Both the position numbers and the translations under genes were made by a program. Below are positions 5,459-56,247 of a DNA stretch of 64,000 bases, one piece after another. The first letter of the stretch is position 1. Every line of letters begins with the position of its first letter. The DNA is from Cyclina sinensis. Its lineage: Eukaryota > Mollusca > Bivalvia > Venerida > Veneridae. The notes below the pieces were generated by a model. It worked only from the letters and a program-made list of their open reading frames with translations. It did not search any database and had not been told where the DNA came from. The DNA is taken from NCBI GenBank assembly GCA_012932295.1, contig JAAONU010000016.1, forward strand, positions 16,459,530 to 16,523,529, read 5' to 3'.

Positions 5459-7233
5459 TTTTAGCTCACCTGAGGACAATGTCCTCAAAGTGAGCTTTTG
5501 TGATGGCCCATTGTCCGTCTTCCATCATCCGTGCATCCGTCTGTCCTTCCATCCATCAACAATTCCTTAAAACAACTTCGCCTCCTAAACCACTTGTCTA
5601 AATTTGTTCAAACTTTGCAGGGGTGTTCCTTGCATGAAGCTCTACCAAATTTGTTCAAAGAATTCAATTCCATCAAGAACTCTGGTTGCTATGGCAATTG
5701 AAAGGAAAAACTTTGAAAATCTTCTTGTCACAAACCACAAGGCCCTGAGCCTTAAGATTTGGTATATAGCATTGTCAAGTGGACCTCTATCAAGTTTGTT
5801 CAAATTATGCCCCTGGGGTCAAATTTGGCCCCACCACGGGGGTTAATTGATTTTACATAGGCTTATATAGTGAAACTTTAAAATTTTCTTGTCTGAAACC
5901 ACAAGGCCCTGAGCCTTAAGATTTAGTATGTAGCATTGTCTAGTGGACCTCTACCAAGTTTGTTCAAATTCTGCCCCTGGGGTCAAATTTGGCCCCGCCC
6001 TGGGGGTCAACTTATTTAACATAGTGAAAATCTTCTTGTCTGAAACCACAAGGACCTGACCCTTCAGATTTTGTATGTAGCATTGTCATGTGGACCTCTA
6101 CCAAGTTTGTTCAAATTATACCGCTACGGTCAAATTTGGCCCTGCCCCATGGGGTCAATCGATTTTACATAGGCTTATATAGTGAAACTTTAAAAATCTT
6201 CTTGTCTGAAACCACAAGGCCCTGAGCCTTAAGGTGTGGTATGTAGCATTGTCGTGTAGATCTCTACCAAGTTTGTTCAAATTATGCCTCTGGGGTTAAA
6301 TTTGGCCCCGCCCCAGGGGTCGATTGATTTTACACAGGGAAAACTTTGAAAATCTTCTTGTCTGAAACCACAATGCCTAGAGCTTAGATATTTGGCATTT
6401 AGCACCCTCTAATGGAACTCTACAAAAATTGTTCAAATTATTTCCCTGGGGTCAAAATTGGCCCCGCCCCAGGGGTCACTTCATTTTACATAGACTTATG
6501 TAGCAAATCTTTAAAAATCTTCTTCTCAGAAACCACAATGCCTACAGTTTAAATATTTGGTAAGTAGCATTGTCTAGTGGATGTCTACCAAGTTCGTTCA
6601 AATTATGTTTCCTGGGTCAAAATTAGCCACGCCCGAGGGTTCTCTTAGTTTACATAGCTACATGTAGATTTATATAGGAAAAAGATGAAAAATAATTTTT
6701 CTCCGAAACTAATAGGACTAGACCTTAGATATTTGGTGTGGAGTATTGTGTAGAGAACCTTTACCAGTATTGTTTAAATGTCAAAATTGACCCTGCCCTG
6801 GGGGCCCTTAATATGTAAAAAAGGAAAAACTTTAAAAATCTTCTTGTCTGAAACCACAATGCCTAGAATTTTAAAATTTGTCATGAAGCAAGCTTTATCA
6901 AGCTTTTTCAAATTATTAGATTAGGTTAAAGGTCACGGAGGCTAAAAATAGATTTATCTACTGTACCTCATAGAGCCTTCATTTATAGACCAATATCTTT
7001 GATATTCAGTATATAGGTTCCTTGCATGGACCTCTACCCATGAGTAGGGTTTGAGGTCACTGGGTCAAGGTCACCATAGCTTATAATAGATATTTCTACT
7101 TTCTGTCATAGAGCCTTTATTTATTGACTGATATTTACATATTTGGTTTGTAGGCAATAAAATACTGCTTAACAGCAAACCTACTGCCAAAGTACTCAGG
7201 TGAGCGATCCAGGGCCATCATGGCCCTCTTGTT
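5459..7233 (+). mobile_element. AGCTCACCTGAG-family tandem-core element, copy 1
   Basis: The head is a hairpin (TTTTAGCTCACCTGAGGAC paired with GTCCTCAAAGTGAGCTTT), followed by GTCCGTCT-like runs. The core is a series of about 110-150-bp degenerate repeats with GAAACCACAAGGCCCTGAG, CTCTACCAAGTTTGTTCAAA and GGTCAAATTTGGCCCCGCCC. The tail GGTGAGCGATCC, palindrome GGGCCATCATGGCCC and CTTGTT ends at 7233. It is inserted in the tandem array of the element at 4958-9842. It holds no gene. Confidence 0.8.
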
Positions 7234-7491: not shown

Positions 7492-9412
7492 TTTAGCTCA
7501 CCTGGCACAAAGTGCCAGAGTGAGCTTTTGTCAAACCCCAATGTCCAGTGTGCTTCGTGCGTCATGAGGCGTCAACAATTTCATTCAAACGGCATCTCCT
7601 CTGCAACCACTGGGCCAAATTCAATGGAACTTGCATGAGATGTTCCTTGCATGAAGCTCTTCCAAAGTTGTTCCATGCAGAACTCTGGTTGCCATGGCAA
7701 ACAAAACCCTTGGGTCAGAACTGGCCCCGCCCTGGGGGTCACTTGATTTTACATAGAGTTACATAGGGAAAACTTCAAAAGTCTTCTTATCAGAAACCAC
7801 AACACATGGAGCTTAGATATTTGGTATGCAGCATTGTCTAGTAAACCTCTACCAAGATTGTCCAAATCATGGCCCCTGGGTCAAAACTGGCCCCACACAG
7901 GGGTTTCATGTTTTACATAGAGTTATATAGGAAAAAACTTTAAAATCTTCTTGTCAGAAACCACAAGGCCTAGAGCTTAGGTATTTGGTGTTCAGCATTA
8001 TCTTGTAGACCTCTACCAAGATTGTTCTAATCATGGCCCCAGGGTCAAAATTGGCTTTGCCAAAGGGGTCACGTGTTTTACATAGAGTTATATAGGAAAA
8101 TCTTAAAAAATCTTCTTCTCAGAAACCGCAAGGTCTGGAGCTGAGATATTTGGTACAAGGCATCATCTAGTGGATCTCTACAAAGATTGTTCAAATTATG
8201 GCCCCTTGGTCAAAACTGGCCCCACACAGGGGCTTACCTAATTTACATAAAGTTATATAGGGAAAACTTTAAAAATCTTCTTGTCAGAAACCACAAGGCA
8301 CGGAGATTAGATATTTGGTGTTGAGCATTGTCTAGTAGACCTCTACCAAGATTGTTCAAATCATGGCCCCTGGGTCAAAATTGACTACGTGTTTTACATA
8401 GAGTTATATAGTAAATTCTTTAAAAATCTTCTTGTCAGAAACTGCAAGGCCTGGAGCTTAGATATTTTGTATGAGGCATCATCTAGTGGATCTCTACAAA
8501 GATTGTTCAAATTATGACCCTAGGATCAGAACTAGAATTACAGTGTATATAGGGAAAACTTTAAAAATCTTCTTGTAAGAAACTACAAGGCATGGAGCTT
8601 GGTGTCGAGCATTGTCTAGTAGACCTCTACCAAGATTATTCAAATCATGGCCCCTGGGTCAAAATTGACCCTGCCCAAGGGGACATGTTTTACATAGAGT
8701 TATATAGCAAAAAACTTTAAAAATCTTTTTGTCAGAAACTGCAAGGCCTGGAGCTTAGATATTTGGTAGTATGCACTGTGATCACAGTGGGGTCATCCCC
8801 CCTCCCCTGGGGGTCACTCCCCCCCCCCCACCCCAAAAAAAATTTTTTTTTTCATTTTTAAGTTTTTCGCTATGGCAATAACATTTGGATCATTTGTACA
8901 GTTTTTCAAGATGATTTCAAAAACATTATTCCTTGACCTATATTTTTGACCTACTGACCTACTTTTTTGTTTTTTAGCTACAGCGATGAAATTTGGACCA
9001 TGTGCACAGTTTTTCATTTCGATTTCAAAAATGTCATTGCATGACCTATATTTTTGACTTACTGACCTACTTTTTGTTTTTGGAGCTATGGCATTGAAAT
9101 TTGGACCAGTTGTACAGTTTTTTGTTCCGATTTTAAAAAAGTCATCGCATGACCTGTATTTTTGACCTACTGACCTACTTTTTGTTTTAAAGCTTCAGCA
9201 ATGAAATTTGGGCTGTGTGTACAGCTTTTTGTTCCAATTCAAAAATCTCGTCTTATCACCTATATTTTGACCTACTGACCTATGTTCTTGTTTTTGGAGC
9301 TATGGCAATGAAATTGCATTGGTCCATTTCTGTGATATGCATCATTACATTCATAAAAATTTCTTTCATCTTTGAACCCAGGTAAGCACTTTAGGGCCAT
9401 TGGCCCTCTTGT
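7492..9412 (+). mobile_element. AGCTCACCTGAG-family tandem-core element, copy 2
   Basis: The head TTTTAGCTCACCTGGCACAA pairs with TTGTGCCAGAGTGAGC-like sequence. The core repeats the CAGAAACCACAAGG / CTCTACCAAGATTGTTCAAA / GGGTCAAAATTGGCC unit and passes at 8800-9370 into a second repeat type of about 110 bp (TGACCTACTGACCTACTTTT, GGAGCTATGGCAATGAAATT). The tail AGGGCCATTGGCCCTCTTGTC ends at 9412. The same combination of core types recurs inside 57719-60185. Confidence 0.75.
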
Positions 9413-14762: not shown

Positions 14763-15288
14763 GTAAGTATAATAAACTTCTGCAAGACATCAATAGCTGG
14801 GGTTTCATTAAGACCCAGGAGCTGGGTAAATTACGCGGCTATTATTCTATTTTTCCCTAGCTACCTTTCTTAAAATCAGGCTTATTTTATAACAAACTGG
14901 CAGCAAATCACCTGCCTACTTTACATGTACTCCCTCCAACTCAAAAACTTAATGAAAACCCTGCAATAGATAAAGCTTGGTGAAAGGTGGAAAATAGCCA
15001 TTGAAATATTTTGTATGAAAGATAGCCAGTTCCTTGAAAGAACTTGTTAGTGAAATTTTGATTAATTAAATGGCATATATGAGTAGATTGCCTAACAGTC
15101 AATAAGGTCTTAACATTGAAGTTGAAAGTCAAAAGAAATTGGTCTGTACTTACAAAATGAATGGTGTTATAGTGTCATACATGTTTGAGGGGAGTCACTA
15201 TGGTAAGCATAATAATTTCAGTGCAAATCTGCCCATGTATTATTAGTGAACCTGCAGTGTTTGCAGACCAGTCAAAATAAGGTTTTGT
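14763..15288. other. Intron 1, left part, no further feature
   Basis: This is plain AT-rich intron sequence between the exon 1 donor and the inverted-repeat heptad element. Nothing else was recognised. Confidence 0.5.
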
Positions 15289-15319
15289 ATGGAACGCCTG
15301 CACTGCCTTAATATAATGA

Positions 15320-16720
15320 ATACTAGTTTGTCATGTACATGTAAATACAACAATTTGTGCTGTGCAATATTTAGTTCGTTATGTACAGAGTTTAGTTTGT
15401 TATGTAGAAACAATAGTTTGTCTTGTGCAATTACAAGTTCGTTATGTACAGAGTTTAGTTTGTTATGTAGATAAAATAGTTTGTCTTGTGCAATTATAAG
15501 TTCGTGATGTACAAAGTTTAGTTTGTTGTGTAGATAATATAGTTTGTCTTGTGCAACTATAAGTTCGTGATGTACAAAGTTGAGTTCGTCATGTAGATAA
15601 AATAGTTTGTCTTGTGTATTTATAAGTTCGTTATGTACAAATTTAATAAAATAGTCTGTCTTGTGCATTAATTAGTTCATTATGTAGATAAAATAGTTTG
15701 TCTTGGGCATTTATTAGTTTTTTATGAAGATAAAATAGTTTGTCCTATGCATTCATTAGCTTGTTATGTAGATAAAATAGTTTGTCTTGTGCATATATTA
15801 GTCTGTTATGTAGATAAAATAGTTTGTCCTGTGCATTTATCAGTTCATTAATATGTAGATGAAATAGTTTGTCTTGTGCAATTATAAGTTTGTTATGTAG
15901 AAAAAATAGTTTGTCCTGTGCATTTATCAGTTTGTTATGTAGATAAAATAGTTTGTCTTGTGCAATTATTAGTTCGTTATGTAGATAAAATAGTTTGTCT
16001 TGTGCAATTATAAGTTTGTTATGTACACAGTTCAGTTCGTTATGTAGATAAAATAGTTTGTCCTGTGCATTCATCAGTTCGTTATGTAGATAAAATAGTT
16101 TGTCTTGTGCAATTATAAGTTTGTTATGTACACAGTTCAGTTCGTTATGTAGATAAAATAGTTTGTCCTGTGCATTCATCAGTTCGTTATGTAGATAAAA
16201 TAGTTTGTCTTGTGCAATTATAAGTTTGTTATGTACACAGTTTAGTTTGTTATGTAGATAGAATAGTTTGTTTTGTGCAATTATTAGCTGTTATGTAGAT
16301 AACTTTGTCTTGTGCAATTATTAGTTTGTTATGTAGATAAAACAGTTTGTCATGGGCATTTATTAGTTTGTTATGTTGATAAAATAGGATGTCTTGTGCA
16401 ATTATTAGTTCGTTATGTAGATAAAATAGTTTGTCTTGTGCAATTTGTAGTTCGTTGTGTAGATAAAACAGTTTGTCTTGTGCATTTATTAGTTTGTTAT
16501 GTAGATAAAATAGTTTGTCTTGTGCAACTATAAGTTCGTAATGTATAAAGTTTAGTTTGTTATGTAGATAAAATAGTTTGTCTTGAAGAATAATAAGTTT
16601 GTGTTGTACATAGTTTAGTTTGTTATGTAGATACAACAGTTTGTCGTGTGCATTTATAGGTTCGTGTTGTACAAAATTTAGTTCGTTATGTACATTTATT
16701 AGTTTGTGATGTGCATTTTT
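15320..16720 (-). repeat. Left arm tandem array of the heptad element
   Basis: 21-bp monomers are arranged as 42-bp (two-monomer) and 63-bp (three-monomer) units. On the minus strand they read as 7-residue steps each led by Leu, such as LIIAQDK and LFYLHNK. Three minus-strand open frames (15243-15668, 15745-16179, 16250-16771) cover most of it, separated by stops or frame slips. The arrangement is less regular than in the right arm. Coding function is not supported, because a period divisible by three keeps frames open by itself. Confidence 0.85.
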
Positions 16721-16849
16721 CATTATGATGATGATGATATAAAAGGGAGAAAAACTATAACTAATTAGCATGAATTTGACGTCACGTTTTCGTGCTACAT
16801 TAGCGCCTAAAATATTGTTGAAATTGGGGGAGACTCTGACAAACTTGAT

Positions 16850-17650
16850 TATGTAGGCTGGTCATGACCAATAGATGACCTCTGTAGTTTTATCAGGTCA
16901 CCAGATCAAAGGCCAAGATCACAGTAACCTTGAAAAGCAAAACGGTTTCCGATAAATAACCATAGAACGCTTGGGCACATGTTCCTCAGACTTGGTATGT
17001 AGGTTGGTCATGACCAATTTTGCTTTACAGGTCACCGTGCAAAGGTCACAGTGACTTTGAATAGCAAAAAGTTTCCAATCAAGTTTTATAGAAGGCTTAG
17101 GCCAAGCGCCTCAGGACTTTAAAGACAGGTTAGTTATGACCAGTAGATGACTCCTGTAGTTTTTCAGGTCATTAAGTCAAAGTTCAAGGTCACAGTGACC
17201 TTGAAAAGCAATACAGTTTCCGATCAATAACTATAGAATGCTTGGTTCAGATTCCTCAAACTTGGTATGCCGGTTGGTCATGGCCACTAGATGAATCCTA
17301 TAGCTTTTCAGGTCACCAGTACAAAGGCAAAATGATTTCCGATGAATAACTATAGAACGTTTTGGCCAAGATCCCTAAAACTTCAGGAAAAGGTTTGTCA
17401 TGGCCGGTAGATGACCCCTATTGATTTTAGGATCATTCCGTCAAAAGCCAAGGTCGTCGTAGTGACCTTAAAATCATAACGGTTTCCGATCAAAAATTAT
17501 AGAACGCTTGGGTTTAGGTCCCTCAAACTTGACCATGACAAATAGATGACATTTATAATTTTACAGATCACCAGGTCAAGGGCCAAGGTGACACTGACCT
17601 TGAACAGCAAAACGGTTTCTGATCAATAACTGTAGAATTCTTTGGCTCAT
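16850..17650 (+). repeat. Central spacer of the heptad element: about 145-bp tandem repeats
   Basis: About five degenerate units contain GTTGGTCATGACCA, AGATGACCCCTAT-like, AGGTCACC..CAAAGGTCA and ACGGTTTCCGATCAATAAC. The unit is the same type as the large array at 22988-25235. It has no recognisable head or tail here, so it is either a fragment that landed between the arms or an original spacer. Confidence 0.7.
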
Positions 17651-17823
17651 GCCTAACTTATTTTTATGGCTGCCTGTAGGGATTTATTTTAGAAATACCC
17701 AGATTCTAGGGATAAGACTCAACTGTACAACACGAACTTATCATTGCATAAGACAGACTATTTTACCTACATAACAAACTAAACTTTGTACATCACGAAC
17801 TTATAACTGCACATGACAAACTG

Positions 17824-19497
17824 TTGTTTCTACATAACAAACTACACTTAGTACATCACAAACTAATAATTGTACAAGACAAACTATTTTATCTATATAA
17901 CATACTGAACTTTGTACATCACGAAGTAATAATTGCACATGACAAACTGTTGTTTCTACAAAACAAACTACACTTTGTACATCACGAACTAACAATTGTA
18001 CAAGACAAACTATTTTATCTACACAACATATTTAACTTTGTACATCACGAACTAGTAATTGAACAAGACAAACTATTCTTTCTGCATAACGAACTAAATT
18101 TTGTACATCACCAACTAATAATTGCACAAGACAAACTTATTTATCTACATAACAAACTAAATTTTGTACATCACAAACTAATGATTGCACAAGACAAACT
18201 ATTTTATCTACATAATGAACTACACTTTGTACATCACGAACTAGTAATTGCACAAGACAAACTATTTTATCTACATAACAAACAAAATTTTGTACATCAC
18301 GAATTAAAAAATGCACAAGACAAACTTATTTATCTACATAACAAACTAAATTTTGTACATCACAAACTAATGATTGCACAAGACAAACTATTTTATCTAC
18401 ATAATGAACTACACTTTGTACATCACGAACTAGTAATTGCACAAGACAAACTATTTTATCCACATAACAAACTAAATTTTGTACATCATGAATTAAAAAA
18501 TGCACAAGACAAACTTATTTATCTACATAACAAACTACACTTTGTACATCACATACTTATAATTGTACAAGACAAACTATTTTATCTACATAACAAACTA
18601 AAATTTGTACATCACGAACTAATGATTGCACAAGACAAACTATTTTATCTACATAACGAGCTACACTTTGTACATCACGAAGTAATAATTGCACAAGACA
18701 AACTTATTTATCTACATAACAAACTCAATTTTGTACATCACAAACTAATGATTGCACAAGACAAACTATTTTATCTACACAACATATTTAACTTTGTACA
18801 TCACGAACTAGTAATTGCACAAGACAAACTATTCTTTCTGCATAACGAACTAAATTTTGTACATCACCAACTAATAATTGCACAAGACAAACTTATTTAT
18901 CTACATAACAAACTAAATTTTGTACATCACAAACTAATGATTGCACAAGACAAACTATTTTATCTACATAATGAACTACACTTTGTACATCACGAACTAG
19001 TAATTGCACAAGACAAACTATTTTATCTACATAACAAACTAAATTTTGTACATCACGAATTAAAAAATGCACAAGACAAACTTATTTATCTACATAACAA
19101 ACTAAATTTTGTACATCACAAACTAATGATTGCACAAGACAAACTATTTTATCTACATAATGAACTACACTTTGTACATCACGAACTAGTAATTGCACAA
19201 GACAAACTATTTTATCTACATAACAAACTAAATTTTGTACATCACGAATTAAAAAATGCACAAGACAAACTTATTTATCTACATAACAAACTAAAATTTG
19301 TACATCACGAACTAATGATTGCACAAGACAAACTATTTTATCTACATAACGAGCTACACTTTGTACATCACGAAGTAATAATTGCACAAGACAAACTTAT
19401 TTATCTACATAACAAACTAAAATTTGTACATCACGAACTAATAATTGCACAACACAAACCTATTTATCTACATAACGAACTGGTATTCATCATATAG
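17824..19497 (+). repeat. Right arm heptad array containing a 557-codon open frame
   Basis: The frame encodes about 26 copies of a 21-residue unit of the type FVHHELIIAQDKLFYLHNKL. Each unit is three heptads led by Leu, Val or Phe-Leu. At DNA level the steps are 21 bp, 63 bp and a higher-order 189-bp unit (LMIAQ, LVIAQ and LKNAQ variants in fixed order), repeated around 18136-18514 and again around 18890-19268. The array continues upstream to about 17727, where the frame has a stop in place of the usual Gln codon. Most monomer differences change the residue, which fits neutral satellite growth rather than selection on protein. There is no evident start context, signal or neighbour gene. I treat it as a repeat, not as a gene. 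A coiled-coil-like product cannot be excluded. Confidence 0.85.
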
Positions 19498-19516
19498 AGG
19501 CAGCTCAGGCGTTCCA

Positions 19517-20113
19517 TAGTTTTGTGTCAGTACAGCCCTTAAGATATTCAAGTTTTATTGAAAATCAGTTATGCTTTTAATGTATTCAACTTTCATCCCA
19601 GTATAATTGTGTAGTTTTAAAAAGTACATGTAAATAAATGTTAGACCACTGTACTCAGAACATTTACTTAATAATTCTCCCAAATGAACTTTCAGTCTCT
19701 TCCTGTGTCTTCACCCCAGAAATATTTGAAATATTTCCTACTATACATGTTTACTCTGTAAATATTCATTAGCAATTTAATTCTGTGCATTAATCTGTAC
19801 ACATCATTTATGAATTTACAGTTAACAAACCTTGAATGCCAACACTTACCATTTATTTCACTTGTAAATAACACTGTTTCAAGCTCCATATGATGTCTCT
19901 GTGCTGATACTGCAGTTTTAATCCACACACACTGTCACTGTATTGCAACTGTATTATTATTATTGTTATAAGTTATTATTATTAAGCAGTGAGCAGATTT
20001 GTCCACTTTAAATTTTGTTCACCAGTTAGAGTTATTTTATAATAACTAGGTTTGCATTATTTCGAAAATTTGGAAAATTGGTGAAATCTTTAATGAATTA
20101 ATAACTTTTTCAG
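19517..20113. other. Intron 1, right part, no further feature
   Basis: AT-rich intron sequence leading to the acceptor ACTTTTTCAG at 20104-20113. No repeat or RNA was recognised. Confidence 0.5.
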
Positions 20114-20554: not shown

Positions 20555-21717
20555 GCAAGTCAGTGTATTTGCTTTCTACCAGTATGTTTGTTGTTTTCCA
20601 TTTACAGGCTTGGAGTAGCAATCTTTAGTTACTTTATCCTAGCTTTTAGCTCACCTGAGCAAAGTGCTGAGGGTGAGCTTTTCTGATCAGTCTTTGTCTG
20701 TCGTATGTTGTCCATCCTTGGTCAACTTTTCATTCAAACAACATTTCCTCTGAAACCAATAAGCAAAATTTAATGAAACTTGCCTGGGATGTTTCTTGCA
20801 TGAAGCTCTACCAAGATTGTTCAAATGGTTCTGGTCCATTGCATTTCTGGTTACCTGGAGCTAAAAATAGATTTAAAAAGTTGGATCTTTAAAAATCTTC
20901 TCCAAAACCTCAAGGCCTAGAGCTAAGATATTTGGTACGAAGCACCATCTAGTGGACCTCTACCAAGTTTGTTCAAATAATGACCCTGGGGTCAGAATTG
21001 ACCTCACCCCAGGGGTCAGTTGATTTTACTTAGATTTATATAGGGAAAACTTAAAAATCTTCTTTTCAGAAACCACAAGGCCTAGAGTTTAGATATTTGG
21101 TATGCAGCATTGTCCAGTGGACTTCTACCAAGTTTGTTCAAATCATTGGCCCTTGGTCAAAAATGGCCCCGCCCCGGGGGTCACATGTTTTACATAGAGT
21201 TGTATAGGAAAACCTTTAAAGAATATTCTTGTCAGAAACCGCAAGGCCTAGAGTTTAGATATTTGGTGTGTAGGATTGTCCAGTGGACCTCTTCTAAGTT
21301 TGTTCAAATCATAGCCACTGGGTCAAAATTGTCCCTGCCCTTGGGGTCACTTGTTTACATAGAGTTATATAGGAAAAAGTTTAAAGTCTTTACATCAGAA
21401 ACCAAAAGGCATAGAGCTTTGATTTTCGTATGTAGCATTGTCAAGAGTACCTCTACCAAGTGTGTTCAAATCATGGCCCCTGTGTCAAAAATGGCCCCAC
21501 CCCAATGGTCACATATTTTACATAGAGTTTTCAGATACCACAAGGCCTGAGTTTAGATATTTGGTGTACAGCATTGTCTATTGGACCTCTGCCAAGATTG
21601 TTCAAATCATAGCCACTAGGTCAAAAAAGGTCCTGCCCCAGGGGTCACGTTTTACATTAGTTACATAGGAAAAACTTAAAAAATCTTCTTGTCAGAAACC
21701 ACAAGCCTAGAGTTATT

Positions 21718-22987: not shown

Positions 22988-25235
22988 TATGCCCCCCATC
23001 GAAGATGAGGGGGCATATAGTTTTGCAAATGTCGGTTGGTCGGTCTGTCGGTCCGTCCCTCGGTAGACACTTCGTTTCCGATCAATAACTAGAGAATGCT
23101 TCGACCTAGGTTCACCAAATTTGGTATGCTGGTTGGTCATCATCAGTAGATGACCCCTATACATTTTGAGATCATTAAGTCAAAGGTCAAGCTCACAGGG
23201 ACCTTCATCCTAGAAACGGTTTTCCGATCAATAACTAGAGAACACTTTGACCTAGGTTCACCAAACTTGGAATGCTGGTTGATCATCACCAGTAGATGAC
23301 CCCTATTGACTTTGAGGTCATTAGGTCAAAGGTCAAGCTCACAGGGACCTTCATCATAAAAACGGTTTCCGATTAATAACTAGAGAACGCTTTGTCCTAG
23401 ATTCACCAAACTTGGAATGCTGGTTGATCATTACCAGTAGATGACCGCTATTGACTTTGAGGTCATTAGGTCAAAGGTCAAGATCACAGAGGTTTCATCC
23501 TAAAAACGGTTTCCGATCAATAACTAGAGAACGCTTTGACCTAGGTTCACCAAACTTAGTATTCTGGTTGACCGTTACCAGTAGATGACCTCTATTGACT
23601 TTGAGGTCATAAGGTCAAAGGTCAAGCTCACAGAGACTTTCATCCAAAAAACAGTTTCCGATCAATAACTAGAGAACGCTTTGACCTAGGTTCACCAAAC
23701 TTGGTATGCTGTTTGGTCATCACCAGTAGATGACCCTCTATTGATTTTGAGGTCATTAGGTCAAAGGTCAAGCTCACAGAGACTTTCATCCTAAAAACAG
23801 TTTCCGATCAATAACTAGAGAACGCTTTGACCTAGGTTCACCAAACTAGGTATGCTGGTTGGTCATCATCAGTAGATGACCCTTATTAATTTTGAGGTCA
23901 TTTGGTCAAAGGTCAAGCTCACAGGGACCTTCATCATAAAAACGGTTTCCAATCAGTAACAAGAGAACGCTTTGACCTTGGTTCACTAAACTTGGTATGC
24001 TAGTTGGTCATCACCAGTAGATGACCCCTATTGACTTTGAGGTCATTAGGTCAAAGGTCAAGATCACACAGACTTTCGTGCTAGAAACGGTTTCCAGTCA
24101 ATAACAAGAGAATGCCTTGACCTAGGTTCACCAAACTTGGTATGCTGGTTGGTCATCACCAGTACATGAGTCCTATTGATTTTGAGGTCATTAGGTCAAA
24201 GGTCAAGATCACAGAGACTTTCATCCTAAAAACGGTTTACGATCAATAACTAGAGAACGCGTTGACCTAGGTTCAACAAACTTGGTATGCTGGTTGGTCA
24301 TCACCAGTAGATGACCCCTAATCATTTTGAGATCATTAGGTCAAAGGTCAAGCTCACAGGGACCTTCATCATAAAAACGGTTTCAGATCAATAACAAGAG
24401 AATGCTTTGACCAAGGTTTACCAAACTTGGAATACTGGTTGGTCGTCGCCGGTAGATGACCCCTATTGACTTTGAGGTCATTAGGTCACAGGTCAAGATC
24501 ACAGAGACTTTTGTCCTAAAACGGTTTCTGCTCAATAACTAGAGAACGCTTTGACCTAGGTTCACCAAACTTGGTATGCTGGTTGGTCATCACCAGTTGA
24601 TGACCCCTATCGACTTTGAGGTCATTAGGGTAAAGGTCAAGATCACAGAGACTTTCATCCAAAAAACGGTTTCCAATCAATAACTAGAGACCGCTTAGAC
24701 CTAGGTTCACCAAACTTGGTATGCTGGTTGGTCATCACCAGTAGATGACCCCTATTGATTTTGAGGTTCATTAGGTCAAAGGTCAAGGTCACAGGGACCT
24801 TCATCCTTAAAACGGTTTCTGATCAATTACTAGAGAGCGCTTTGACCTAGGTTCACCAAACTTGTTATTCTGGTTGGTCATTACCAGTAGATGACCTCTA
24901 TTGACTTTGAGGTCATTAGGTCAAAGGTCAAGCTCCCAGAGACTTTCATCCTAAAAACTGTTTTTGATCAATAACCATAGAACGCTTTGACTTAGATTCA
25001 CCAAACTTGGTATGCTGGTTGGTCATCACCAGTAGATGAGTCCTATTGATTTTGAGGTCATTAGGTCAAAGATCAAGGCCACAGGGACCTTGATCCTAAA
25101 TCGGTTTCTGATCAATAACGAGAGAATGCTTTTGCTCAACCACAAGCAATTAGGTGCTGCTTGGGGACATGTATGTTTTACAAACATTTCTTGTTCATTG
25201 TTAGGTCTCCTCCAAACCCCGCCCTTCTGTTGAAG
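22988..25235 (+). mobile_element. ATGCCCCCC-family element with about 14 units of roughly 147 bp
   Basis: The hairpin head ATGCCCCCCATCGAAGATG pairs with GAGGGGGCATATAG and is followed by GTCGGTCCGTCC. Then about 14 well-conserved units follow with GATCAATAACTAGAGAACGC, TTGACCTAGGTTCACCAAAC, GGTTGGTCATCACCAGTAG and ATGACCCCTATTGACTTTG. Each unit has clustered AGGTCA half-sites. The right end merges into another repeat type (25236-25700) without a clear tail. No gene. Confidence 0.75.
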
Positions 25236-29316: not shown

Positions 29317-31460
29317 TCAGCTCACCTGAGCACAAAGTGCTCAGGGTGAGCTTTTCTGATCAGTCTTTGTCTGTCCGTCCATCCATCCGTCGTCAATTTT
29401 TCATTCAAATGACATCTCCTCTGAAACCAAAGGGCCAAATTAAATGAAACTTGCCTGGGATGTTCCTTGCATGGAACTCTACCAAGTTTGTTCAAATGGT
29501 TCCAGTTCTTTGCATTTCTGGGTCACAGGAGCTAAAAACAGATTTTAAAAGTTTGATCTTTAAAAATCTTCTTGTCAGAAACCACAAGGCCTGGAGCATT
29601 GATATTTGGTATAAAGCATCATCTAGTGGACCTCTACCAAGTTTGTTCAAATTATGATCCTGGAGTCAAAACTGACCCCACCTCAGGGGGTCCCTTGTTT
29701 TACATAGAGTTATATTGGGATAACTTTAAAAATCTTCTTGTCAGAAACCGCAAGGCATAGAGCTAAGTTATTTGGTGATCAGCATTGTCTAGTTGACCTC
29801 TACCAAGTTTGTTCAAATTATACCTCTGGGGTCAAAAATGGCCTCGCCCTAGGGGTAAATTGTTTTACAAAGACTTTTATAGGAAGAACTTCAAAAATCT
29901 TCTTGTCAGAAACCGTAAGGCATAGAGCTTAAATTTTTGGTATGTAGCATTGTCTAGTGTACATCTACCAAGTTTGTTCAAATAATACCTCTGTGGTCAA
30001 ATTTGGCCCCACCCTGGGGTCATTGGTTTTACATAGGCTTATATAGTGAAAACTTCAAAAATCTTCTTGTCTGAAACCACAAGGCTCTGAACCTTAATAT
30101 TTGGTATTTACATGTAGCATTGTCTAATTGACCTCTACCAAGTTTGTCCAAATTAAGCCCCTGTGGTCAAATTTGGCCCCACCCCGGGGGTCATTTGATT
30201 TTGCATAGGGAAAACTTTGAAAATCTTCTTGTCTGAAACCACATGGGCCTTAGCTTTAAGACTTGGTAAGTAGCATTGTCTAGTGGACCTCTACCAAGTT
30301 TGCTCAAATTATACCCCTGTGGTCAGATTTGGCCCCACCCCGGGGTTATTGGTATTACATAGGCTTATATAGTGAAAACTTTAAAAATCTTCTTGTAGAA
30401 GGAGAGGTAACATTTTCATTCCAAATAATCTTGAAATTTGTCAGACAGGTTGTTTTTATGATATCTAGCTCAAGTTCGAATATGGGTCATCTGGGTCCAA
30501 AAACTAGGTCACAGAGCCCTGATAGGTCACAAAGCCCAAACATAGAAAAACCTTGTTAACACTCTAGAGGTTACATTTTCAGTCAAAATATCCCAGAAAT
30601 TTGTCAGACAGTTTGTTTTAATGACTTCTAGCTCAAGTTCGAATATCGGTTATCTTGGGTCAAAAACTAGGTCACAGAGCCCAAATATTGAAAAACCTTG
30701 TTAACACTCTAGAGGTAACATTTTCAGTCCATATAACCTGGAAATCTGTCAGAAAGGTTGTTTCAGTGATTTCTAGGTTAAATTTGAATATGGGTCATCT
30801 GGAATCAAAAACCAGGTCACAGAGCCCAAAGATAGAAAAAAAACTTGTAAGCACTCTAGAAGCTACATTTTCAGTCCAAATATTCTCGAAATTTGTCAGA
30901 AAGGATGTTTTAATGATTTCTAGCTCAGATTTGAATATAGGTCACCTGGGGTCAAAAACTAGGTCACAGACCCCAAATATGGAAAAACCTTGTTAATGCT
31001 CAAGAGGTTACATTTTCAGTCCAGGTACCCTTGGAATTTGTCAGAAAGGTTGTTGCAATAGTTTCTAGCCTAGGGGTAATCTGGGATCAAAAACTAGTTC
31101 CAGAGCCCTAAAATGTAAAAACCATTTTTACACTCCTGAGGTTACATTTTCAGTCCAAAAATCCTGGAAATTTGTCAGACAGGTTGTTTTGATGATTTGT
31201 AGCTCAAGTTTGGATATGGATCATCTGGGGTCAAAAACTAGGTCACAGACCCCAAATTTGGAAAAAAAACCTTGTTAACACTCTAGAGGCTACACTTTCA
31301 GTCCAAATTACCTGGAAATTTGTCAGAAAGATTGTTTCAATAATTTCTAAGCCAAGTTCAAATATGGGTCATCTGGGGTCAATTAACCATGTCTATAGCA
31401 ACTTTATTAAAAGCAGTCATATTCAGGTGAGCAATACAGGGCCATCATGGCCCTCTTGTT
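29317..31460 (+). mobile_element. AGCTCACCTGAG-family element, copy in intron 4
   Basis: The head AGCTCACCTGAGCACAAAG pairs with TGCTCAGGGTGAGCTTTT and is followed by GTCTGTCCGTCCATCC. The first core type runs to about 30400. A second core (30400-31390) has about seven units of roughly 150 bp with GGTTACATTTTCAGTCCAAA, TTTGTCAGACAGGTTGTTTT and GGGTCAAAAACTAGGTCAC. The tail GGTGAGCAATACAGGGCC, ATCATGGCCC and TCTTGTT ends at 31460. Confidence 0.8.
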
Positions 31461-53768: not shown

Positions 53769-53985
53769 TTCCATTCATTGATGAATTATATAGATGAGGT
53801 ATTCTTATTATCGAAATACGGGACTGAATTTGTAAGAAAATCATTAGTCTAGTACTTAATGCACTTCTAATTTTTTTTCCAGATGAAAAGCAAAATGACT
53901 TTGAGCATGTTAGTGTGTAAGTGTTTCTTCCACATTCCAGTCACATTATAATAATACTAATAATACTGTTTATTTATACTTGCAG

Positions 53986-54760
53986 GATGATCTTGTGTCA
54001 GCTGAAATTAATCCTGGTATAGTAAAGTATCTCAAGCAAAATAAGAAATTTGATGCATGGAAAGAAGCGATGCAGTCTAAGTATCAGGTCAGGCTACAGC
54101 AGAAAGAAGATGCAGTTGTGATTTGCGAAGGATCTTTTCCTTCCATTCTTTCATTTGAAAGTTACCTTGATAGCACATTCTTGAGCAGCCAAGTGTCTCC
54201 CGATGATGACAATAGCAAGCAGGAAAGGACATGCCCATGCAATGGTGAGAGTGCACCAGACATGAATATAACAGCCAAGACTGAAGGAATAGCAACCACT
54301 CAAGCTTTTGCAGATAAGCACAATGAAACATCCAAACCCCCAGCAAGTAGCACAAATGATACAAAAAGGAATGGTAATGATAATGTGGAAAAATACAAGA
54401 ATATTTTTGAAAATTATGAAATTGCCATTATTGAAGGAGACATTGCTTATATGTCTACTGATTGTATAGTACGCTACACAAATGAAATATTAGTGCCTGA
54501 TGGTGCTGGTAACAGTATTTCATCTTCTAGGGGATACAGCTATTCACAGGAAACAGCTAAAAAAAGAGAAGTAGGACTTACTGACTGCTTAGTGACTGAT
54601 GATGAAAACTTGAGGTGCAAAAAGGTGATTTGTATTAAGGGCCCTGAGTGGAAGGACAAAACTAAGGCTGGACAAGTATTGCAAGATAATGTTGAGAGAT
54701 GTTTGGAAAAAGCTGATCAATTAAAGTTCTTGTCAGTGTCTTTACCAGTGGTTTATCCAG
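53986..54760 (+). CDS. Macrodomain gene, exon 11: KH-like module, low-complexity linker, macro D
   Basis: It encodes residues 1112-1369 (phase 0 to phase 1) between TTATACTTGCAG and CCAG|GTAAGA. The first 65 residues (INPGIVKYLKQNKKFDAWKE, then VVICEGSFPSILSFESYLD) form a KH-like module. A polar linker follows (Ser, Asn, Thr, Lys). The last 120 residues, YEIAIIEGDIAYMSTDCIVR onward, are a macrodomain. The GDI motif is kept, but the following DAIVNAAN is degraded to DCIVRYTN and the glycine loop to DGAGNS. The strand FLSVSLPVVYPG replaces the FPAxGTGxxGFP loop, and this exon ends within it. Confidence 0.85.
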
Positions 54761-55425
54761 GTAAGAAATAGTTCGACATTAAGGTAATGAAATAAGAATG
54801 GAGTGTTTTTACATAAACATTATTGTCAAGTAACAGAGTAGTAATTATGACTAATCTTATCATTTATAAAAGCTTAGGTGATTCTTAAAATCATTTATAA
54901 TTTTAGGAAGACCTAAGGTTAAAAAAAAAAGATAGAACCAAAAGTCATTTGACTCAGCTTTGGAATACATTACTATGAGTATGTAAAAATATTCAAGCTG
55001 AAACAAAAAAGTAACAAAAAAGTCTTGGTTGTGGTACATTTCAGCATTTGCTTGTATCATTTCATTAATAGCAGTTTTTAAGGGGAATGTTTTTTGCCCT
55101 CATTGTCACTTCAAGTTTTATTGGTAAAACTGAGACAATGTTCAACCCCAATTTGAAGGAGTCTGCATCTTGGGTTACACAAAATACAGTGAGTGATGAA
55201 AGCAAATGGTTGTCAGTGCTTTTCTTTAATGTTTTAAATAATCTTTTAATTGAACTCTATGACAATACTGAACAGATAAGTTACAAAATAAAAGATATAT
55301 GTTAATGATGAAGGTCATCTGGCTGAAAGCATTGAAATATGTTCACATTTTGGTTGTTAATAATTAAACCTTGTTGTATCATGATAATTTAGTAAATTAA
55401 ATTTGTGCTGGCTTTTAATTTTCAG
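54761..55425. other. Intron 11, no further feature
   Basis: A short AT-rich intron (665 bp). No repeat or RNA recognised. Confidence 0.6.
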
Positions 55426-56040
55426 GATCAGAGAATGTCTCTCCAGAGCTGCTGTTACAGTCGTATGTTGGGGCTCTAAAGAGCTTTTCTAAACGTAAGC
55501 AATATGTTTCAAAAGTGTTAATTGTTGAAAAAGACCCAAAAATAGCAGACTCTTTAATGAAATCATTAGATGTTATTATCAGTACACAATGTGCAAAGAC
55601 TGATACTAAAATTTGCCCTGATGAAACTAGCATTGAAATTGTGAATAAACAAAGAAGAATTAAGATTTACAGTGTTTTAGGGAATTTAGAGTCATTGGAA
55701 GTAGCAGCAGTTGTGAGTACAGAAAATAAGGATTTCTCTGGCAAAAGTAAAATTGCAAAGGCTCTTTTAAGTCTTGGTAATGATGATTATAGAAAGGAAC
55801 ATGAAAAATTATCTGGGTGCAGAAATGCTGCAGTTGGAGCAGTCATTGAAACAAGGATAACTGGTGGACAGCTAACATGCCAGTATGTGTTACATACAGT
55901 TGTTCCACGGAGGAACCGTGACTATTGTAAGGATACATTTAAGTTTGAGAGAGATATCAAACTTACAGTCAGAAAAGTCCTCAACAAAGCTTCTCAGTTA
56001 CATTGTAATTCCCTGGCATTGCCTCTGTTTGGAATATCTG
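55426..56040 (+). CDS. Macrodomain gene, exon 12: end of macro D and most of macro E
   Basis: It encodes residues 1370-1574 (phase 1 to phase 1) between TTAATTTTCAG and ATCTG|GTAAGT. The first 60 residues finish macro D (ELLLQSYVGALKSFSK helix, strand VSKVLIVEKD). Then RRIKIYSVLGNLESLEVAAV starts macro E, with a central strand pair CQYVLHTVVPRRNRDY and the helix-strand DIKLTVRKVLNKASQLHCNS then LALPLFGISG. The last is a loop 2 like macrodomains (PLFGxxG), though the Asn loop (STENKDFSGKS) is degraded. The exon ends in loop 2, so the rest of macro E must be in the next exon. Confidence 0.85.
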
Positions 56041-56247
56041 GTAAGTCATTCTTGTTTGTAGCAGCAGAATTTTTTTTAGAGCTGTTTTGTGGGGTTCAAA
56101 GTCTTTAATTTTTGAAAGCTTCTACAATTGATAATGTTTTAATGTCAATACTTCATCTTCAAGAAGTTAAACTTTTATTTTCAATCTTTTGTTTCCTTAG
56201 TTTTAGTTTATTATGGAAGTAAAATTTTATCTGTTGTAATATTATAG

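Follow-up and report, generated by a model that had tools for sequence, protein, structure and literature searches.

The window, as the whole 64 kb stretch of DNA analysed is termed here (C8:16459530-16523529), contains an element of 4231 bp at positions 15288-19518, limits that lie one to two bases outside those initially assigned to it (15289-19516). It is flanked by a perfect 6 bp target duplication, GTTTTG, found on the left at 15282-15287 and on the right at 19519-19524. The left end (15288-15324, + strand), which is 36-37 bp long and starts TATGGAACGCCTGCACTGCC, is repeated in inverted form as the right end (19482-19518, - strand): the left sequence, TATGGAACGCCTGCACTGCCTTAATATAATGAATAC, and the reverse complement of the right, TATGGAACGCCTGAGCTGCCTCTATATGATGAATAC, are identical at 31 of 36 positions, the same match as the 30 of 35 originally described, plus one base.

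Arrays of a 21 bp monomer begin directly inside each end and run in opposite orientations, as the first-pass annotation had recognised. The left arm, at approximately 15325-16733, has many small indels and is organised mainly into 42 bp and 63 bp higher order units, 42 bp being its strongest period and 63 bp the next. The right arm, at approximately 17724-19481, has no indels relative to its unit in this copy, and its strongest periods of 189, 126 and 63 bp bear out the 63 bp and 189 bp higher order structure reported on this side. A ten-position core, T..ACA..AC.AACT when read outward, is common to the monomers of both arms. The right arm also carries an outward open frame of 557 codons with a TTG start (17824-19497, + strand), which stops inside the right end and is judged below to be a by-product.

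Separating the arms is a 990 bp centre (16734-17723), a degenerate minisatellite with a different unit, of around 145 bp, such that the earlier description of the element as almost wholly a protein-frame satellite does not hold. This centre shares 90.7-96.8% identity with the centres of the other 17 measured copies. It is also around 67% identical to a separate 145 bp array elsewhere in the window (23074-25132), around which a search for inverted repeats revealed no ends that paired convincingly. Neither Rfam nor tRNA scanning of the 64 kb window gave any match.

Dispersed copies and the history of their arms

The ends are not confined to the window copy. A pattern of 35 places, allowing up to three mismatches, had 157 matches (81 forward and 76 reverse) in the 903 Mb assembly (902.9 Mb in 154 contigs), and the reversed control pattern had none in the same assembly. 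Among the 115 distinct ends listed, out of these 157, 72 can be joined into 36 facing pairs with spacings of 1.0-7.4 kb; the other 43 are without a partner in those lists, and some of them, such as those at L010, L012, L015, L024, L026, L028 and L035, were paired on reading the locus. The loci read numbered 25, comprising the window, 20 taken from the best right-arm matches and four added later (L032-L035). Two facing ends are present in 23 of them, and one end only at L013 and L021. The 6 bp duplication is perfect in 19 of the 23 two-ended copies, matches at five of six positions in three (L015, L033 and L035) and at one of six in L009. The 16 perfect hexamers among the first 18 copies share no fixed word, with A and T making up 62 of their 96 letters.

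Eighteen copies, the window copy and 17 others, were measured throughout; L013, L016 and L021 were left out as unpaired by strict end patterns, although L016 was paired afterwards and has a perfect duplication. All 18 retain the same order of end, left arm, centre, right arm and end, the left array having mostly 42 bp higher order units and the right array multiples of 63 bp. The left arms are 797-1829 bp long, the right arms 877-1759 bp, and the centres, each a decayed 145 bp minisatellite, 924-1024 bp. The first eight letters of both ends are invariant, giving TA..TA termini of the form TATGG...CCATA, and the ends of the family take the form TATGGAACG. The distance from the end to the first monomer is 36-46 bp in these copies and 36-43 bp in five more, and arrays directly adjoin both ends in 22 of the 23 two-ended copies, the exception being L033. 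The element is thus one copy of a dispersed DNA transposon, as the initial description of a transposon-like unit with satellite arms had anticipated.

When the arms of the window copy are aligned to each other, 85% of aligned letters agree (1153 identities, 202 mismatches and 183 gap positions); the alignment scores 1247, and 20 shuffles gave at most 37. Across the 18 copies, the shared fraction of 15-mers is 0.50 between left arms and 0.49 between right arms (153 pairs each); between left and right arms it is 0.18 within the same element (18 pairs) and 0.177 between different elements (306 pairs). As the two arms of one element are no closer to each other than are those of different elements, they are not mirror copies kept alike, no homogenisation between them being seen in the 18 copies, and the difference between left and right is older than the spread of the measured copies. 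The asymmetry of the arms, with 42 bp higher order units on one side and multiples of 63 bp on the other, provides a test of hairpin homogenisation of inverted arms, none of which is evident in this sample.

The likeness of the arms over their aligned letters, and the existence at L021 of an array in one orientation behind a left end only, could be taken to indicate an inverted satellite array or, as had been raised as a refutation, an assembly artefact derived from one array. Such an origin is barely credible for sequences that have defined ends and 6 bp duplications at many separate and unrelated sites, that keep a conserved centre between their arms, and in which, from copy to copy, the left arms belong to one lineage and the right arms to another.

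The long open frame

Long outward frames had been described on both arms. This stands for the right arm of the window copy, which has an open run of 581 codons as well as the 557 codon frame, but not for the left, where the outward frame is broken by shifts and the longest open run is 181 codons inside the arm, or 203 when part of the centre is included. A single open frame extends over at least 90% of the length of seven of the 18 right arms. These frames raise the prospect that the transposon harbours a gene, or a captured gene fragment, for a long heptad-repeat protein, an explanation that the pattern of changes between monomers makes very improbable.

The changes were compared with a neutral expectation, in which each was reassigned at random among sites sharing its base and core class. 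In the right arms (18 arms, 375 units), the distinct changes comprise 120 nonsynonymous, 35 synonymous and three stop, against 119.9, 33.3 and 4.8 expected; in the left arms (18 arms, 409 units), the corresponding figures are 124, 36 and seven, against 125.2, 35.1 and 6.7. Neither arm departs from the neutral expectation for distinct changes, which lends no support to the idea that the satellite is maintained for a protein frame. When changes are counted per element, the right arms again lie near expectation (653 nonsynonymous, 227 synonymous and 24 stop, against 647.7, 226.5 and 29.8), but the left arms show a deficit of stops (11, against 41.6 expected with a standard deviation of 6.1) and an excess of synonymous changes (314, against 277.5). 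This element-weighted result is the one leaning most towards coding; we attribute it to a small number of old variants, each of which enters the count repeatedly. The window copy alone has 43 distinct changes; 16 of these are synonymous, a slightly high number (11.7 expected, p = 0.08), and there is no stop among them (1.4 expected, p = 0.23).

Frame-shifting indels are common in other copies. The right arms contain 21 indel calls, in 10 of the 18 copies, of which 18 are of 1-2 bp and one is a multiple of three in length, with adjacent calls possibly being parts of one event. The third positions of codons rank with the best conserved in the monomer, another feature at odds with selection on a heptad protein. 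A protein search in which 7,993 candidates were scored retained none of them, and the four Pfam matches were weak and to unrelated families, with no stretch passing alone. A coding gene was consequently rejected on the neutral distinct changes, the frame-shifting indels and the lack of a protein match, the left-arm stop deficit being the contrary observation. The long frame instead looks like a by-product of a unit length divisible by three, in combination with one consensus frame without stops, and the element is apparently non-coding. Even a satellite whose open frame is long and tidy can therefore be non-coding, and calling a gene in such a sequence needs a test of selection.

Variant copies and the search for a transposase

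Several loci depart from the standard arrangement. In L032 (1030 bp), the arms are joined without a centre, and in L034 (1324 bp) the ends are almost symmetric and both the arms and the middle are short; each of these two copies has a perfect duplication. The largest, L033 (7416 bp), was considered as an autonomous copy and rejected: it belongs to the family, its centre contains an insert with a reverse transcriptase domain (RVT_1), and its right arm has one monomer followed by around 1 kb of other sequence before the rest. At L021, the single-orientation array behind the left end is around 3.8 kb long, which hints at the element being a portable source of satellite. At L036, there is a good end that lacks 21 bp arrays and a poor second end-like match (14 of 36 positions mismatched); one 106 aa piece from this locus has no Pfam match.

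A third type of end, containing ..CTGCCTTTATATAATG.., was found at nine loci (L029, L030 and L037-L043) and considered as a relative of the family. These nine have upstream sequence in common, seven over around 100 bp and two over the 33-36 bp compared, and L029 and L030 also share a far boundary. This type was therefore dropped as a relative, and is read as an end of the satellite-arm family that another repeat has captured.

Reading the copies revealed no transposase. A search for the IS3-like integrase core (PF13683) gave at least 43 matches in the assembly among the best-scored candidates, three of which were fetched and found to have domains like those of LTR retrotransposon pol genes: reverse transcriptase and RNase H in L044, a piece of integrase core in L045, and an integrase with an H2C2 zinc domain in L046. 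Pattern searches in these three found neither a convincing family end nor paired TA ends flanked by a 6 bp duplication. They were read as Gypsy-like LTR retrotransposons and rejected as the autonomous partner. When coordinates were compared by eye, none of the 43 listed matches was close to any of the 115 listed ends.

Possible role of the arrays and relationship to known elements

The element is probably a non-autonomous cut-and-paste transposon of the foldback type, with arrays that function as transposase-binding sites and a frame that is incidental to them. A transposase produced from another genomic site would recognise the 36-37 bp ends, cut the element out and insert it at a staggered 6 bp target, the enzyme and its cutting being postulated to account for the observed duplications. 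Most likely, the 21 bp arrays would present this enzyme with a series of binding sites. As 21 bp corresponds to two turns of B-DNA, the putative sites would all face one side of the helix. Unequal exchange or slippage, acting on each arm alone, may have produced the variation seen in array length. A precedent for such sites comes from Galileo, in the long inverted ends of which additional transposase-binding sites are described within the tandem repeats, its authors suggesting that they give foldback-like elements binding specificity (excerpts of PMC3688188).

The alternative is that the same transposon carries arrays without a role, having grown neutrally as satellite from one monomer adjacent to an end and then been spread by transposition, which we regard as rather unlikely. 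Consistent with it, the short-armed L034 and L032 inserted well, and rare changes private to one element strike the core as often as they do other positions (24 and 20, respectively, in the right arms, and 15 and 14 in the left), although this freedom is to be expected of dead copies. Against it, both arms, long separated, retain the same ten-position core, and arrays lie directly beside both ends in almost every two-ended copy. Widespread variants also avoid the core, on which fall six of 55 in the left arms, against 45 of 72 among rare variants present in one to three elements (p = 2e-9), and 12 of 37 in the right arms, against 48 of 90 (p = 0.05), a contrast that is partly circular, the core having been chosen from the same arms. 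These patterns hint that the monomer core may be constrained as a binding site. The indication comes from the old, widespread variants, with rare ones falling equally often inside the core and outside it.

Several observations count against the explanation of the element as a foldback-type transposon with binding-site arrays: no transposase-bearing partner was found among the three integrase matches fetched, 6 bp duplications occur in Polinton too, rare changes do not spare the monomer core, the copy at L009 is without a proper duplication, most of the right arm of L033 lies apart from its end, and stops in the left arms are fewer than expected when weighted by element.

With regard to the superfamily, IS3EU elements are described as having TA..TA termini and 6 bp duplications, with GingerRoot mostly the same, and Polinton also generates 6 bp duplications (excerpts of PMC10045372). 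Both the termini and the duplications are present in the satellite-arm family, and on this basis the mobilising transposase is likely to be of the IS3EU/GingerRoot kind. The family differs in its tandem-repeat arms, which do not feature in the excerpted description of IS3EU and GingerRoot (PMC10045372). The literature searched, which covered few subscription journals, contained nothing tying IS3EU to foldbacks other than one co-mention, in an oyster satellite survey where 'foldback' occurs once, in a reference. It is tentatively proposed that this is an IS3EU/GingerRoot foldback family, in which a 36 bp terminus is combined with up to around 84 helically phased binding sites, the arms are separate satellites and the element acts as a portable source of satellite. 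If the IS3EU assignment is true, a further transposon superfamily has given rise to the foldback architecture.

The architecture itself is that of a foldback element, like FB, Galileo, Tm1 and Tetris: long inverted arms of short tandem repeats are present in all 18 copies, the number of repeats varies between arms and between copies, and the copies are dispersed and associated with target duplications. The first-pass annotation knew of no named family like it. This stands insofar as word searches of the literature, in which names rather than sequences were compared, brought up no previously named family possessing the same ends, and the family is new as far as searched; the architecture, however, has a name and known relatives. 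The 6 bp duplications differ from the 7 bp of Galileo and the 7-8 bp of the P superfamily in general. They also differ from the 8-10 bp of Mutator-type foldbacks, the group to which most foldbacks are said to belong (excerpts of PMC4079207).

Each relative resembles the family in part. Galileo, a P superfamily element of Drosophila, likewise has long, internally repetitive inverted ends, a likeness of description rather than of sequence, but its transposase is known and is P-like (excerpts of PMC3688188). Tm1, a Mutator/foldback element of root-knot nematodes, has inverted ends consisting of a variable number of 13-15 bp tandem units, arms that differ in length within an element and some copies without transposase; it differs in its 9 bp duplications, its terminal motifs and its known, Phantom-like transposase (excerpts of PMC3169594). 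The Tetris foldback of Drosophila virilis is non-autonomous, with tandem repeats inside its inverted ends that can expand into satellite and a partner that was not found, but its repeats are 220 bp long and its duplications 8-10 bp (excerpts of PMC4079207).

Among bivalves, the pearl MITEs are similarly modular and non-autonomous, with satellite-like repeats inside, comparable with the minisatellite centre here; these are described as internal and short, with no more than six monomers to an array, rather than as inverted arms (excerpts of PMC5139131). In the Pacific oyster, CgiSat43 is, by description rather than by sequence comparison, a dispersed repeat that also has a 21 bp unit; the survey table gives no Repbase match for it, and two other satellites of the same species, CgiSat47 (129 bp) and CgiSat35 (690 bp), have Repbase matches to IS3EU (excerpts of PMC8268682).

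Variant arrays associated with the family ends

Loci elsewhere in the Cyclina sinensis assembly carry the ends of the foldback family in other arrangements. At one of these, L021, a 21-bp array in a single orientation extends for approximately 3.8 kb behind a left end (L021 2335-6096), with neither the centre nor a right end seen alongside it; it is possible that this array represents growth into a free-standing satellite. Another, L036 (1577-5971), has a good family end without 21-bp arrays, and its interior contains two 105-bp arrays in opposite orientation that are built from 21-bp steps.

Paired copies and embedded ends

Two pairs of copies, one on C9 (C9:14570595-14577998 and C9:14598214-14605614; 7403 and 7400 bp) and one shared between C14 and C16 (C14:26809708-26812593 and C16:25037116-25040001; both 2885 bp), have members that match or nearly match in length, which suggests possible segmental duplication. 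At nine further loci (L029, L030 and L037-L043), a family end and a few monomers are embedded in a different repeat, which has itself been multiplied. L029 and L030 share the terminal sequence GGTATCGGCACCGTG, which we take to be perhaps a Helitron-like end.

Other repeats and frames in the window

A separate tandem array of around 14 units of 145 bp (window 23074-25132) is approximately 67% related to the element's centre; no convincing pair of ends was found in its flanks. Macro domains occur in two forward-strand frames of the window (53980-54768 and 55515-56105), and a reverse-strand frame (1244-2038) carries an aspartyl protease domain of retroviral type. One recurring kind of unit, approximately 165 bp long, forms arrays at 5708-6657, 7707-8768, 20887-21529 and 29558-30400; satellites described from bivalves have units of similar size.
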